From the NCBI GenBank assembly GCA_003600225.1, contig QZFT01000038.1, positions 23,076 to 87,075 of the forward strand: a stretch of 64,000 nucleotides of DNA, written 5' to 3'. The notes under the pieces are model-generated. The model had not been told where the DNA came from, did not search any database, and worked only from the letters and a program-made list of their open reading frames with translations. Of the stretch, positions 52,922-58,636 are shown one piece after another (position 1 is the stretch's first letter; each line of letters begins with the position of its first letter). The position numbers and the translations under genes are program-made. Source of the stretch: Pseudonocardiaceae bacterium YIM PH 21723 (GTDB lineage: Bacteria; Actinomycetota; Actinomycetes; Mycobacteriales; Pseudonocardiaceae).

Positions 52922-52974
52922 CCGAAGTTGACGATGTTCGGGCACGCCTTTCGCCCGAACATCGTCAACTTCGG
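52922..52974. terminator. Single hairpin of repeat family 2
   Basis: Perfect 22-bp stem (52922-52943 with 52953-52974) and a 9-nt loop, built from GTTGACGATGTTCGGGC and its inverse, between convergent acyl-CoA dehydrogenase and MFS genes. The right arm includes the last codons and stop of the MFS gene. The same arm sequence recurs four times at 58518-58636. Confidence 0.78.
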
Positions 52975-54167
52975 GACAACGACCGGCCGGCCACCAGCAC
53001 GGTGAGCGCCACCAGGCCGCCGGCCGCCAGGAACACCGCGTGCAGCGACCAGTGCACCGCCGCCGGGCCGGCCACCGCCGCGCCCAGCGGCATCAGGCTC
53101 CAGGCGAGCATCCGGTTGGTGTTGCTCACCCTCCCCTGCAGCTCCGGCGGGGTGAGCCGCTGCCGCCGGGTCGCCGACAGCACGTTCCAGCAGCCGCTGG
53201 CCACGCCGAGGAGTCCGAACAACCCGAACGCCGGCGCGGGTGCCGAGACCAGGCCCAGTCCGAGGAAACCCACCGCCAGCAGCACCAGGGACGCGACCAT
53301 CACCGGTCCGTCGCCGCACCGAGCCGAGGCCGGGGGCGCCAGCCGCGCGCCCAGCACGGTGCCCGCGGCGACCGCCGCGCCGAGGAACGGCACCTGGGCC
53401 GCCGTCAGCCCCAGCACCCGCAGGCCGTAGATGATCTCCAGTGCGGTGACCGACCCGGCGGCGAACGCGATCACCGTCACCGCGCCCACCACGGCGCGCA
53501 AGGTGCGGTGGTGCAACAGGTAGCGGAGCCCCTCGGCCATCTCCGCGCCGAGCAACGCGGGCCGGGAGTGATCGCCGACCCGCACCTCCGTCACCGGACG
53601 CAGCAACACGGCTGCGACGACGAAGCACACCGCGTCCACCGCGAAACACACCTCAGGGCGCCAGGCGAACAACACCGAGGCCAGCACCGGACCGGCCACA
53701 GTGGACGAACTGGTCTGCACGACGGACAGAATGCTGTTGGCGCGCAACAGATCCGGTTTGCCGGCCACCGCCACCAGGACCACCTGCCCGGCGGCCTCGG
53801 CGAAGGTCTCCACCGTGGTGATGGCGAACGCGGCCACCGCCATCACCACCAGGCCGGCGTATCCGGTCGCGACGGCGATCCCGAGCAGGGCGGTCAGGAA
53901 CGCGCGCAGCAGGTGCATGCCGACCAGCAGCCGGCGCGGCGCGGCGCGGTCCACGATCGCCCCGGACAGCACGCCGACGAACAGCCAGGGCAGGATCGAG
54001 GCGGCCGTGACGACCGCGGTGGCCACCGGATCGCCGGTGCTGATCGCGGCGTACAGCGGCAGAGCGACCACCCGGATGCCATCGCCGGCCAGCGCGATAC
54101 CCGAGGACCACAGCAATCGGCGGAATTGTCCTGTCGAGACACCGACCGGGCTGATCTCCGACACCAT
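52965..54167 (-). CDS. MFS transporter, EntS-like exporter family
   Basis: Membrane protein of 400 residues with twelve predicted helices, like the EntS/MFS_3 group of drug and siderophore exporters: FRRLLWSSGIALAGDGIRVVALPLYA at the start, LSGAIVDRAAPRRLLVG (loop 2-3 motif), LLRANSILSVVQTSSSTVAGPVLASVLF, and LTPPELQGRVSNTNRMLAWSLMPLGAAVAGP near the end. ATG 54167 has GGGGGGTC just upstream. It is divergent from the putative RiPP genes across a 95-bp gap and may export their product (inference). Its last codons lie inside a palindromic repeat. Confidence 0.82.
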   Translation of the reverse strand: MVSEISPVGVSTGQFRRLLWSSGIALAGDGIRVVALPLYAAISTGDPVATAVVTAASILPWLFVGVLSGAIVDRAAPRRLLVGMHLLRAFLTALLGIAVATGYAGLVVMAVAAFAITTVETFAEAAGQVVLVAVAGKPDLLRANSILSVVQTSSSTVAGPVLASVLFAWRPEVCFAVDAVCFVVAAVLLRPVTEVRVGDHSRPALLGAEMAEGLRYLLHHRTLRAVVGAVTVIAFAAGSVTALEIIYGLRVLGLTAAQVPFLGAAVAAGTVLGARLAPPASARCGDGPVMVASLVLLAVGFLGLGLVSAPAPAFGLFGLLGVASGCWNVLSATRRQRLTPPELQGRVSNTNRMLAWSLMPLGAAVAGPAAVHWSLHAVFLAAGGLVALTVLVAGRSLSRS

Positions 54168-54262
54168 GACCGACCCCCCGACGCCGTTGTCCAGGTCACC
54201 ACAATCCCTCTACATTTGAGAGCAATGGGGCCGGAAAACGTATCCAGCATTGGGAGGTAATC

Positions 54263-54391
54263 ATGAAGAACAACAAGAAGACGGCACTACGGATCAAATG
54301 TCTGAAATCGGTCACCGCCGATTCGCAGCAGGCGGCGGAGCGCCCACTGGGCGTCACGATCGAACTGCCCCGCAGGACGATCGCGAACTGA
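54263..54391 (+). CDS. Putative RiPP precursor peptide
   Basis: ORF of 42 codons with GGGAGG 6 bases before ATG 54263, ending 2 bp before the radical SAM start. It begins MKNNKKTALRIKCLKSVTAD, is basic at the N-terminus, has a middle SQQAAERP and ends PLGVTIELPRRTIAN. Size, position directly before a RiPP-type radical SAM methyltransferase and the strong ribosome site fit a precursor; the C-terminal 12-16 residues (Val, Thr, Ile, Leu and Pro rich) would be the core on which C-methylation acts. There is one Cys at position 13. It has no homologue that I recognise. Confidence 0.6.
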   Translation: MKNNKKTALRIKCLKSVTADSQQAAERPLGVTIELPRRTIAN

Positions 54392-54393
54392 CG

Positions 54394-56199
54394 ATGCCGG
54401 AACTCTGCCTGGTCTCCATGCCATGGCAATCGCTCGCCAGGCCATCGTTGCAGGTGGGGGTGCTGACAGCGGCCTGCGTCCGGGCCGGGCTGCCGGCACC
54501 CTCCAGCTTCCACGGCGACCTGGCGTTCGCCGGCCACCTCCTTGAGCGCTCGGGCGGTGCGCTCACTCCGGCGCACTACGAGGAGGTGGCGGAGAACGGA
54601 TTCGTCCATGCCCTCGGAGATTGGATTTTCACACATACCCTGCACGGAAATGATTTCGGCATCCGGCAGATGGCCGAATACGCCAAGGAGTGGCAGGTCG
54701 ATCTACGCATCGCCACCCGAATGCGTGAACACGCCGAGGAATTCGTGGACATAGCTGTTTCGAAGATTCTCGACATGAATACGGACATTGTCGGATTCAG
54801 TTCCACCTTTATGCAGAACGTCCCCAGCCTGGCGGTGGCCCGGCGAATCAAACGGCGCAGTCCGCGGACCCTGGTGCTGTTCGGCGGCGGCAACTGCGAC
54901 GGCCCGATGGGGGCCGCCCTGCACCGGGAGTTCCCGTTCGTGGACCTGGTCCTCAGCGGAGAGGCCGACGAGAACCTGCCCCTGCTGCTCCGCGCCCTGG
55001 ACTCCGGCGGGCTCGGCGAGGTACCCGGCCTGATCTGGCGGCAGCACGGGGAGCAGCGGATCAACCCGCCCGGCCGCCTGGTGCCGCCGGCGGCCATCGG
55101 ATCCCCCGACTACGACGCCTGGTTCGGCGAGTTCGACCGATCCGCGGTCAGCGAACACCTCACCCCGCAACTGGTGCTGGAGTCATCCCGTGGCTGCTGG
55201 TGGGGCGAACGGCACCAGTGCACGTTCTGCGGCCTCAACGGCACCGGAATGCCGTACCGCAGCAAGCCAGGCCCGGTGTTCCTCGGCGAACTGGAACAGG
55301 CCGTCACCCGCCACCAGGTCCTCGACGTGGTCATGGTGGACAACATCCTCGACCCGCGGTTCACCCGCACCGTGCTGCCCGCGATCGCCGCCCGGGACTG
55401 GGACCTGAACGTGCACTACGAGGTCAAGTCCAACCTCACCGCGGCCCAGATCGCCACCCTCGCGGCGGCGGGCATCCACTCCGTGCAGCCGGGCATCGAG
55501 TCGCTGATCGACGACGTGCTGCGCCGGATGGACAAGGGGGTACCTGCCGCGCGCAACATCCGCACCCTGCGCGACTGCCACACCGAGGGCCTGTCGGTGT
55601 CCTGGAACTGGCTCTACGGCTTCCCCGGCGAACAGGAGCCCGACCTGACCACCGTGCTGGAAACGCTGCCCGCGCTGGTGCACCTGCCACCGCCGTCCGG
55701 GGCCAACCGGATCCAGTTGCACCGCTTCAGCCCGCACTTCACCAATCCGGAGCTGGGGTTCCGCGACCACCGGCCGGCGCGGGCCTACGCCTGCGTCTAC
55801 GACCTGCCGCCGGAGCGGATGGCCGACCTGGTCTACGCGTTCGACACCCCCGACCAGGGACTCACCGACGCGCAGGCCGAGCCGTTGCACGGCGCGATCG
55901 CCCGCTGGCGGGACCACCATCCGGCCAGCGCGCTGACCCAGTCCCGGCAGGAGGACACGATCCTGATCATCGACCGGCGGGCCGGTTTCCCGGCCGCCGA
56001 CCACCGGATCCGGCGGCCGGAACACCTGGCGGTCTGGCGGGAACTGCAGCACGGCAGATCGCTGCCCGCCCTCACCCGCGCCACCGGCGTGGTCGCCGAC
56101 GACTGGCTCGCGGAGCTCCGCGAGGCCGGCCTGGTCTGCGTCGCCGGTGACCGCTGGCTCGCGCTGCCCACCGGACACCTGGCCGGGTACCACCCGTGA
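54394..56199 (+). CDS. Cobalamin-binding radical SAM enzyme, RiPP maturation C-methyltransferase type
   Basis: Protein of 601 residues. N-terminal cobalamin-binding fold (about 1-200: TDIVGFSSTFMQNVPSLAVARRIKR, LFGGGNCDGPMGAALHREFPFVDLVLSGEAD), then a radical SAM domain with the unusual cluster motif C-x7-C-x2-C (Cys268, Cys276, Cys279 in GCWWGERHQCTFCGLNG), as in RiPP maturation radical SAM C-methyltransferases. Later stretches SVQPGIESL and SWNWLYGFPGE are barrel motifs. A C-terminal winged part (about 530-601) may bind the leader. Such enzymes methylate unactivated carbons of peptides. ATG 54394 was chosen since upstream frame overlaps the precursor. Its end overlaps the next gene. Confidence 0.82.
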   Translation: MPELCLVSMPWQSLARPSLQVGVLTAACVRAGLPAPSSFHGDLAFAGHLLERSGGALTPAHYEEVAENGFVHALGDWIFTHTLHGNDFGIRQMAEYAKEWQVDLRIATRMREHAEEFVDIAVSKILDMNTDIVGFSSTFMQNVPSLAVARRIKRRSPRTLVLFGGGNCDGPMGAALHREFPFVDLVLSGEADENLPLLLRALDSGGLGEVPGLIWRQHGEQRINPPGRLVPPAAIGSPDYDAWFGEFDRSAVSEHLTPQLVLESSRGCWWGERHQCTFCGLNGTGMPYRSKPGPVFLGELEQAVTRHQVLDVVMVDNILDPRFTRTVLPAIAARDWDLNVHYEVKSNLTAAQIATLAAAGIHSVQPGIESLIDDVLRRMDKGVPAARNIRTLRDCHTEGLSVSWNWLYGFPGEQEPDLTTVLETLPALVHLPPPSGANRIQLHRFSPHFTNPELGFRDHRPARAYACVYDLPPERMADLVYAFDTPDQGLTDAQAEPLHGAIARWRDHHPASALTQSRQEDTILIIDRRAGFPAADHRIRRPEHLAVWRELQHGRSLPALTRATGVVADDWLAELREAGLVCVAGDRWLALPTGHLAGYHP

Positions 56200-56678
56200 G
56201 GCTCGCGTTCGGCTCGGACATCGAGCAGCGGGCCGCCCTCGACGTGCTGATCACCGCCGCGCAGACCGGGATCCATCCGCTGTGGACACTCGTCGGCGCG
56301 CTGCCCTGGCCACCGCGCACCGTCCAGCACCTGCCTCCGCCGGCCGCCGCCGACGGGGCGGCGGCGACCATGGCGCTGCGGAACTGGCGGGCCGGGTACC
56401 GGCCGGGCAGCTGCCACTACCGGGTGGGGCCCGGGTTCGTCCTGATCACCGACGAGCGGCCCGGCGGGGATCGGCTGCGGATCACCATCACCGGCGAGTG
56501 GCTGCCCGCCTTCGAGCAGATACGCGATGGGCTGCCCTGTTCCGGGCGGGAGGCGGCGCAGTTGCTGGCGGAACTGGTCGAGGTCGGCCTGGCGCTGTCC
56601 TTCGGCGAGCTGGGGCAGGTGCTGCTGGTGCCCCGCGTCGCGCGGCTCAGCTTTTCGGCGCCGCCGGGGCCAGGGTGA
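56196..56678 (+). CDS. DUF5825-like small protein of the RiPP locus
   Basis: Protein of 160 residues, GTG start overlapping the radical SAM stop (GTGA). Helical N-terminus (IEQRAALDVLITAAQTGIHPLWTLVGALPWP), a strand region with YRVGPGFVLITDERPGGDRLRITITGEW, and a C-terminal helix ELVEVGLALSFGELGQVLLVPRV. Proteins of this type (DUF5825) accompany the radical SAM RiPP methyltransferases in other actinobacteria as far as I recall; the assignment is from memory, not from a search. It may be a leader-recognition or partner protein. It converges with a lipoprotein gene with a 32-bp overlap. Confidence 0.55.
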   Translation: MRLAFGSDIEQRAALDVLITAAQTGIHPLWTLVGALPWPPRTVQHLPPPAAADGAAATMALRNWRAGYRPGSCHYRVGPGFVLITDERPGGDRLRITITGEWLPAFEQIRDGLPCSGREAAQLLAELVEVGLALSFGELGQVLLVPRVARLSFSAPPGPG

Positions 56679-57138
56679 AGTCCAGATCCGGATACCGCTC
56701 GGTCAGCACGGCGCGGTCGTGGTCGTTGCCCAGCGCGGTGCTGATCGCGATCCCGGAGCCGTCCTTCGTCGCGGCCAGCCCCATGACCACCACGCCCCGC
56801 GCCCGCAGGGCGGCGTCGTCGGTCCGGATCCGGCCGATCGCGCCGTGCATGTCCTTGATCGAGTACTTCGCGTCCCGGTAATCCACCGGAATCTCGCCCG
56901 CCTCGCGGTACACCCTGTTGTCCAGGTTCACGCTGGGCACCCGGTAGACGATGATCCGGCCGTCGTGCTCCTCGACACCGGCGAACGAACCCTCGAAGTC
57001 GTAACGCAGCACCCGGTCCAGCTTGGCGGTGACGGCCGCCGGTGAGGTCTTGTCCGGCGCCGCGGGTTCTGGCGGATCGCCGGCGCACCCGGCGGGTACC
57101 ACCAGCAGCAACAGCGTGACGACCACTCGGAGCAACAC
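56647..57138 (-). CDS. Lipoprotein
   Basis: Protein of 163 residues. Signal peptide LLRVVVTLLLLVVPAGC with lipobox Cys about 18, then Pro/Asp linker and a domain with DRVLRYDFEGSFAGVEEHDGRIIVYRVPS and a C-terminal strand pair (RYPDLDFTLAPA). No known family. Its 3' end overlaps the DUF5825-like gene by 32 bp, and it is divergent from the amidohydrolase gene. No operon partner on its strand within 2 kb. Confidence 0.72.
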   Translation of the reverse strand: MLLRVVVTLLLLVVPAGCAGDPPEPAAPDKTSPAAVTAKLDRVLRYDFEGSFAGVEEHDGRIIVYRVPSVNLDNRVYREAGEIPVDYRDAKYSIKDMHGAIGRIRTDDAALRARGVVVMGLAATKDGSGIAISTALGNDHDRAVLTERYPDLDFTLAPAAPKS

Positions 57139-57221
57139 AGCTCACAGCCTGCCAGCTGTCTCTCGTTGTCATGAACGCATAAGGTCGAAATCATCTGAAT
57201 GGCCTGGCAGGGGGAGTGATC

Positions 57222-58472
57222 GTGTCCACCATCCGATTCCGCGATGTCCGAGTCTTCACCGGCACCGGCGACCGGCTCAGCGAACCGTGTGACGTGCTGA
57301 TCAGGGACAACCGGATCGACCGGATCGGTTCCGTCGAGGAGCAGGCCGACCAGGAGATCGACGGCCGGGGCCACACCCTGATGCCCGGCATGATCGACGC
57401 GCACTACCACATGGTGTTCTCCACCCTGTCGGTTCCGGAGCTGATGACCGTCGACGCCTCCTACGGCGGCATCCGGTCGGCGCTGGCCGCCAAGGACACC
57501 CTGCTGCGCGGCTTCACCACCGTGCGCGACCTGGGCGGACCGGTGTTCGGCACCAAGCGCGCCATCGACGAGGGCCTGGTCGAGGGCCCGCGGATCTACC
57601 CGTCCGGCGCGATGATCTCCCAGACCTCCGGGCACGGCGACTTCCGCACCGAACACGAGCTGCCCCGTGGCGTCTGCGGCCACTACTCGCACATCGAGCT
57701 GATGGGCGGCGCCGCGATCGCCGACGGCGAGGCCGAGGTGCTGCGGGCCGCCCGCGAGCAGCTGATGAAGGGCGCCACCCAGATCAAGGTGATGGCCGGT
57801 GGCGGCGTCGCCTCCGCGCACGACCCCCTAGATGTCACCCAGTACACGGAGCCCGAGCTGCGCGCCGCCGTCGAGGCCGCCGCGAACTGGGGCACCTACG
57901 TCACCGTGCACGCCTACACCGACCGGGCCGTGCAGCAGGCGATCCGGGCCGGCGTTCGCTGCATCGAGCACGGCCAGCTGCTCGGCGAGGACACGGTCAC
58001 GATGATGGCCGAGCACGACGTGTGGTGGAGCCTGCAGCCGTTCCTGTCCTCCGACACGCAGACCAACAAGCTCAACCCCGCGCAACGGGCCAAGTACGCC
58101 CTGGTCGCCGAGGGCACCGACCGCGCCTTCGCCCTAGCCGCCAAGCACGGCGTGAAGCTGGCCTGGGGCACCGACATCCTGTTCGACCCCAAGCTCGCCG
58201 AGGCCCAGGGCACCCTGCTGGCCGCGACCGGCCGCTGGCTCGACCCGGCCCACCTGCTGCGCACGATCACCTCGGCGAACGCCGAGCTGCTGGCGATGTG
58301 CGGCGAGCGCAACCCCTACCCCGGCAAGCTCGGCGTCATCGAGCCGGATGCCCTCGCCGACGTGCTCCTGGTCCGCGGCAACCCGCTCGAAGACCTCACC
58401 GTCCTCAGCACCCCGGAGACCACCCTCTCGGTGATCATGAAGGACGGCAGGATCCACAAGAACACCCTCTGA
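57222..58472 (+). CDS. Imidazolonepropionase-like amidohydrolase (Xaa-Pro dipeptidase type)
   Basis: Metal-dependent amidohydrolase of 416 residues: MPGMIDAHYHM (HxH metal motif, about 58-68), QIKVMAGGGVAS (carbamylated Lys), YVTVHAYT and RCIEHGQLL (metal His), GTDILFDP (catalytic Asp), and VIEPDALADVLLVRGNPLEDL at the end. The closest described group contains prolidases of the Cc2672/Sgx9260 type and imidazolonepropionase relatives. GTG 57222 lies 5 bases after GGGGGAG; an in-frame GTG at 57216 overlaps the ribosome site. It is not obviously linked to the RiPP genes but lies just beyond them. Confidence 0.85.
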   Translation: MSTIRFRDVRVFTGTGDRLSEPCDVLIRDNRIDRIGSVEEQADQEIDGRGHTLMPGMIDAHYHMVFSTLSVPELMTVDASYGGIRSALAAKDTLLRGFTTVRDLGGPVFGTKRAIDEGLVEGPRIYPSGAMISQTSGHGDFRTEHELPRGVCGHYSHIELMGGAAIADGEAEVLRAAREQLMKGATQIKVMAGGGVASAHDPLDVTQYTEPELRAAVEAAANWGTYVTVHAYTDRAVQQAIRAGVRCIEHGQLLGEDTVTMMAEHDVWWSLQPFLSSDTQTNKLNPAQRAKYALVAEGTDRAFALAAKHGVKLAWGTDILFDPKLAEAQGTLLAATGRWLDPAHLLRTITSANAELLAMCGERNPYPGKLGVIEPDALADVLLVRGNPLEDLTVLSTPETTLSVIMKDGRIHKNTL

Positions 58473-58483
58473 TGCCTCTGCTC

Positions 58484-58636
58484 CGGAGTTGACGATGTTC
58501 GCGCGAGGAACGAGCCCGAACATCGTCAACCCCGGGACGCTCTTCAGGCCGAACATCGTCAACTCCGGGACGCTCTTCAGGCCGAACATCGTCAACTCCG
58601 GGACGCTCTTCAGGCCGAACATCGTCAACTTCGGGA
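58484..58636. repeat. 33-bp-period array of repeat family 2
   Basis: One inverted arm (58484-58502, CCGGAGTTGACGATGTTCG) followed by four direct copies of its reverse complement at 58518, 58551, 58584 and 58617, exactly 33 bp apart. Units share CGAACATCGTCAAC; linkers GGGACGCTCTTCAGGC are identical between copies 2 to 4. Any of the four could pair with the single inverted arm to form a hairpin. Related to the hairpin at 52922-52974. Confidence 0.85.

Follow-up and report, generated by a model that had tools for sequence, protein, structure and literature searches.

Introduction

Cobalamin (B12)-dependent radical S-adenosylmethionine (SAM) enzymes methylate unactivated carbons in the core of ribosomally synthesised and post-translationally modified peptides (RiPPs), e.g., in the polytheonamide, bottromycin and other pathways. 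Systems of the polytheonamide/bottromycin type are not known to have a DUF5825 partner protein. The clavusporins, reportedly described by Zhang et al. in Nat Chem Biol in 2025, do involve such a partner. As stated in PMC12257519, they are C-methylated by a B12 radical SAM enzyme paired with a DUF5825 protein, and biphenomycin-like clusters, whose precursors bear a YHxYxY motif, likewise carry a second B12 radical SAM gene together with a DUF5825 gene. The clavusporin leader is removed by MpcP, a prolyl oligopeptidase, according to PMC12951456. The present analysis deals with a locus of Pseudonocardiaceae bacterium YIM PH 21723, found in a stretch of 64,000 nucleotides (contig QZFT01000038.1, positions 23,076 to 87,075), hereafter the window. 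There is a good probability that this locus encodes a 42-residue precursor peptide, a B12 radical SAM enzyme of the TIGR03975 family and a DUF5825 protein, which together would make a small C-methylated peptide.

Organisation of the locus

The features of the locus are listed in Table 1. The layout announced by the original prediction, i.e., a 42-codon open reading frame (ORF) with a strong ribosome site just ahead of a radical SAM gene, itself overlapped at its stop by a DUF5825-like gene, was recovered at the nucleotide level. The sequence GGGAGG (54252-54257) lies 5 bases before the ATG of the short ORF, the stop of which is separated by 2 bp from the ATG of the radical SAM gene (54394), while the stop of the latter (TGA, 56197-56199) overlaps the GTG start of the DUF5825 gene (56196-56198) in the tetranucleotide GTGA. 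Over both strands of the whole window, 12 ATG-led ORFs of 30-60 residues have a ribosome site with at least 5 matching bases, so that one located exactly in front of the radical SAM gene is unlikely to occur by chance. The GC content of the 42-codon ORF by codon position (0.52/0.45/0.81) is coding-like, and the encoded peptide contains no Phe, Tyr, Trp or His. A scan of positions 54000-57300 for promoters and terminators returned no terminator-like site and a single promoter-like site, at 57166, outside the operon.

Table 1. Features of the locus; positions are counted from the first nucleotide of the window.
Feature	Position	Strand	Basis
Precursor peptide ORF, 42 aa, MKNNKKTALRIKCLKSVTADSQQAAERPLGVTIELPRRTIAN	ATG 54263 to TGA 54391	+	Sequence, two-block motif
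Ribosome-binding site GGGAGGT of precursor ORF	54252..54258	+	6-base match to AAGGAGGTGA
Leader block TALRIKCL, precursor residues 7-14	54281..54304	+	Common to precursors beside related enzymes
Core block LGVTIE, residues 29-34, putative and likely modification region	54347..54364	+	Shared precursor motif
Cobalamin-dependent radical SAM enzyme, TIGR03975, 601 aa, C268/C276/C279	54394..56199	+	Profile score, alignment, predicted structure
DUF5825 partner protein, 160 aa, start within radical SAM stop	56196..56678	+	Profile score
Divergent major facilitator superfamily (MFS) transporter, likely exporter (putative role)	52965..54167	-	Profile matches; same arrangement in Herbihabitans locus L129

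The radical SAM enzyme and its DUF5825 partner

With a score of 528.6 bits for a cut-off of 281.85, the enzyme belongs to TIGR03975; the name of this family is RiPP maturation radical SAM C-methyltransferase, the enzyme type suggested by the original prediction, and methylation of peptide carbons is here predicted. The cluster motif C-x7-C-x2-C, formed by Cys268, Cys276 and Cys279, is invariant across 44 aligned sequences. Its expected position behind a cobalamin-binding fold is borne out by structure comparison, where the best matches of the predicted enzyme structure are the B12 radical SAM enzymes OxsB, TokK, CysS and TsrM, with alignments that begin at residue 1 and extend to about 490-532, the Pfam B12-binding match being under its cut-off (24.0 vs 32.1). 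The same genome contains a second gene of the enzyme family, 47% identical (L002, G000:C38:53490-55277), which has a DUF5825 match of its own and a candidate peptide upstream, and falls in another part of the enzyme tree.

The partner protein scores 60.8 bits against PF19142 (DUF5825), the gathering cut-off of which is 25. A profile built from DUF5825 rows only detects homology between DUF5825 and the C-terminal half of its own radical SAM enzyme, of which it is a shortened relative; counts from an iterated DUF5825 profile were left unused because that profile took in radical SAM sequences. Possible natural fusions, with the enzyme and DUF5825 regions in one open frame, were seen with a profile that is not clean in L073, L075, L078, L086, L094, L104 and L141. 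A leader-binding fold resembling the RiPP recognition element (RRE) is possible in DUF5825, if weakly hinted at. Searched by profile against solved structures, DUF5825 gave a single weak match (E 0.041), taken as chance. The structure 5v1v, whose title reads "in complex with the TbiA leader peptide", is that of TbiB1, an RRE. A text search of an article on RREs (PMC12710340) gave no hit for 5825.

A two-block precursor motif in related loci

The relatives of the enzyme were placed in a quick tree of 120 enzymes from 126 loci, from which L028-L031, L133 and L154 were dropped as short or weak. The window enzyme stands in a clade of 12 rows with full support in the Shimodaira-Hasegawa-like approximate likelihood ratio test (SH-aLRT 100), at the end of a long branch of 0.69 changes per column flagged by the tree program. 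This clade amounts to 10 distinct loci since it contains two identical pairs; the records are labelled Herbihabitans, Kibdelosporangium, Rhodococcus, Actinoallomurus, Amycolatopsis and Nocardia. The locus L004, from a relative in the same family, repeats that of Herbihabitans (L129). The enzymes of L157 and L158 were added after the tree, and their nearest rows are Streptomyces loci outside the clade.

Searching with the precursor sequence alone yielded no candidate in the protein collection and, across 297 genomes of the family, nothing below E 0.08 except the peptide itself. The failing of the ORF to recur in orthologous loci had been named in the original prediction as evidence against a RiPP precursor; in fact, 9 of the 10 distinct clade loci have a short candidate ORF upstream of their enzyme. 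Two blocks are shared by 8/10 of these loci, namely (i) a leader block with the pattern [A/I/S][L/M]x[I/V][K/T], followed by (ii) a core block with the pattern G[V/T]x[I/V/M], to which the core of L062 only comes close. Because the block edges were set with the window peptide in view, the following figures are somewhat generous. Scored with blocks from the other loci only, the window ORF reaches 18.1. Among 7105 control small ORFs, a single one attains this value, and it is itself a precursor candidate, located upstream of the enzyme in the sister clade (L006/L067); none of 1747 length-matched controls does so, against 52 of 20000 shuffled versions of the peptide. When the groups of close relatives were held out one after another, the small ORF with the highest score in the whole locus was situated upstream of the enzyme in 8/10 loci (five independent groups), and the window ORF came first among the 83 small ORFs surrounding it (18.3 vs 9.5 for the next). 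In L062, from Actinoallomurus, which has two tandem candidates, the distal one wins the held-out test, in a longer reading frame. The held-out test fails in L068, where the core block only is present, and in L066, where there is no candidate within 799 bp upstream.

Searching with the precursor alignment retrieved 36 database proteins at E <=0.1, 30 of them of the Amycolatopsis type. These peptides are ordered as an ALTVTNLAES-like block, a variable first core, ALTVTxLAERDE and a nearly invariant GTGRGVTMYNEA; the leader block is thus present twice in nearly all of them (P0031 is devoid of the first core and P0036 of the first leader), while L062 has its two tandem candidates rather than a doubled leader in one peptide. 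The conserved leader with a variable core, for which the original prediction had advised looking beside homologous radical SAM genes, therefore does occur in the Amycolatopsis-type relatives. In four pairs of related precursors, from which the window ORF is absent, the ratio of non-synonymous to synonymous substitution rates is about 0.17 to 0.27. The 42-codon ORF is, on these sequence grounds, very likely a real precursor. Of note, other candidate precursors upstream of related enzymes take different forms, i.e., six tandem PMIR[SN]AA copies in Nocardiopsis chromatogenes (L079:5718-5915) and a terminal Val/Ile run in L014 and L015 (PVVVVVVIIVRR and PVIVVVVVIVRR).

Comparison with described systems

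The leaders and clusters of polytheonamide/bottromycin-type systems are unlike those of the window locus. The clavusporin system resembles this locus in pairing a B12 radical SAM gene with a DUF5825 gene but differs in leader removal, ensured there by MpcP (its location in the cluster being taken from its name): the prolyl oligopeptidase profile PF00326 has 5 matches in the genome of the window (E up to 1e-10), none of which is on the window's contig (C39). The precursors differ as well. An [N/H]-[D/S/N]-P sequence near the precursor N terminus occurs in 29/38 rows of another large enzyme clade, many with alternating Val/Ser cores, and such precursors would be of the clavusporin type; this leader is found in 0/10 distinct loci of the window clade and in 2/70 remaining tree rows. 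Biphenomycin-like clusters, as described in the source cited above, share the B12 radical SAM and DUF5825 genes but combine a multinuclear non-haem iron-dependent oxidative enzyme (MNIO) with aromatic cores, whereas the window peptide has no aromatic residue; no MNIO was detected among the 8 window proteins scanned.

On sequence evidence, the locus can be filed under the B12 radical SAM/DUF5825 peptide systems, as a separate branch and not as a clavusporin. A literature search brought up no description of this precursor family in the sources as far as accessible, and the original clavusporin study may contain a precursor survey. DUF5825 is named in two of the literature records, which are the preprint and the published version of a single work. 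As related bacteria possess the same gene set with recognisably related yet different peptides, the locus probably represents a branch, not yet described, of a natural product class that was discovered only recently. The suggestion of a new C-methylated peptide family thus stands as regards a new precursor branch with its own motif, but not as regards a new kind, since the pairing had already been characterised for clavusporins (PMC12257519).

Proposed pathway and alternatives

Gene order, family assignments, the recurrence of the two-block motif in the clade and the homology of DUF5825 to the C-terminal half of the enzyme are directly supported. The pathway proposed on top of them would run as follows: DUF5825, perhaps together with the related domain at the C terminus of the enzyme, would hold the short leader block; the core would be offered to the enzyme, which would methylate carbons of Val, Thr or Ile in GVTIEL, with methylcobalamin as methyl donor; the leader would be cut off by a protease encoded elsewhere; and the peptide may be exported by the divergent MFS protein. 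Tentatively, and with rather less than even confidence, DUF5825 might have arisen from the C-terminal half of the enzyme as a reduced copy, devoid of the cluster, and turned into a dedicated leader reader. In this clade it would serve precursors whose short beta-strand leader block, sometimes present more than once in a peptide, directs separate short cores to C-methylation with no cleavage signal of the N-D-P type.

The same precursor could be modified otherwise than by C-methylation, i.e., by a cross-link, an epimerisation or another B12 radical SAM reaction, and PbsB, which acts in another RiPP pathway and is likewise a B12 radical SAM enzyme, does form a C-C cross-link according to PMC12257519. 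This is unlikely here considering the name of the TIGR03975 family and, in the same source, the methylation of clavusporins by a DUF5825-paired homologue; as for an aromatic cross-link, the peptide is devoid of the residues concerned. The position of the ORF just 2 bp upstream of the enzyme gene and its strong divergence would also suit a translated leader merely regulating or coupling translation of the enzyme, with the true substrate encoded elsewhere. The held-out motif tests fit badly with such a role, as do the combination of conserved leader and variable core among Amycolatopsis-type relatives, the tandem candidates of L062 and the spacings between ORF and enzyme in relatives, which range from 2 to more than 100 bp; moreover, a search of the genome itself with the precursor alignment retrieved, besides the window ORF (E 2e-9, by construction because this ORF is a row of the alignment), three other places with E 0.04 at best. 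A merely regulatory or coupling ORF is very improbable. Least probable of all is a degenerate, non-functional RiPP locus: the long branch leading to the enzyme could be read that way, but each of the three genes has an open frame, the cysteines of the radical SAM motif are retained and the ribosome site is strong. C-methylation of the 42-residue precursor thus remains the preferred reading.

Flanking genes

The MFS gene starts at 54167, 95 bp away and divergent, just where it had been placed beforehand, its part as exporter being a putative one. By clustering, a protein of this MFS cluster (four members confirmed as MFS by Pfam, a few others being over-long frames) is found within flanks of up to 6 kb in 34/81 loci, the window included, and in 4 of the 7 clade loci of that set, i.e., the window, L062, L068 and L129. 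The gene is downstream in L062 and L068, while L129 shows the same divergent arrangement with an MFS protein 31% identical over 344 positions. Downstream, an amidohydrolase (57216-58472), whose match to a model of Xaa-Pro dipeptidases is below cut-off, was weighed as a candidate leader protease but not retained; it was not seen among the 8 neighbour clusters examined out of 45 listed. In addition, seven copies of GAACATCGTCAAC are present at 52927-52969 and 58488-58629, for 0.11 expected by chance, as an inverted pair that follows an acyl-CoA dehydrogenase gene and, beyond the amidohydrolase gene, as one inverted copy and then four direct copies spaced by 33 bp.

Significance

Enzymes methylating unactivated peptide carbons are uncommon and useful. 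If the proposed reading is true, the locus would provide a minimal three-gene set for C-methylation, a motif able to find precursors overlooked by single-sequence searches, natural core variants for substrate tests, and a testable idea on the origin and role of DUF5825.
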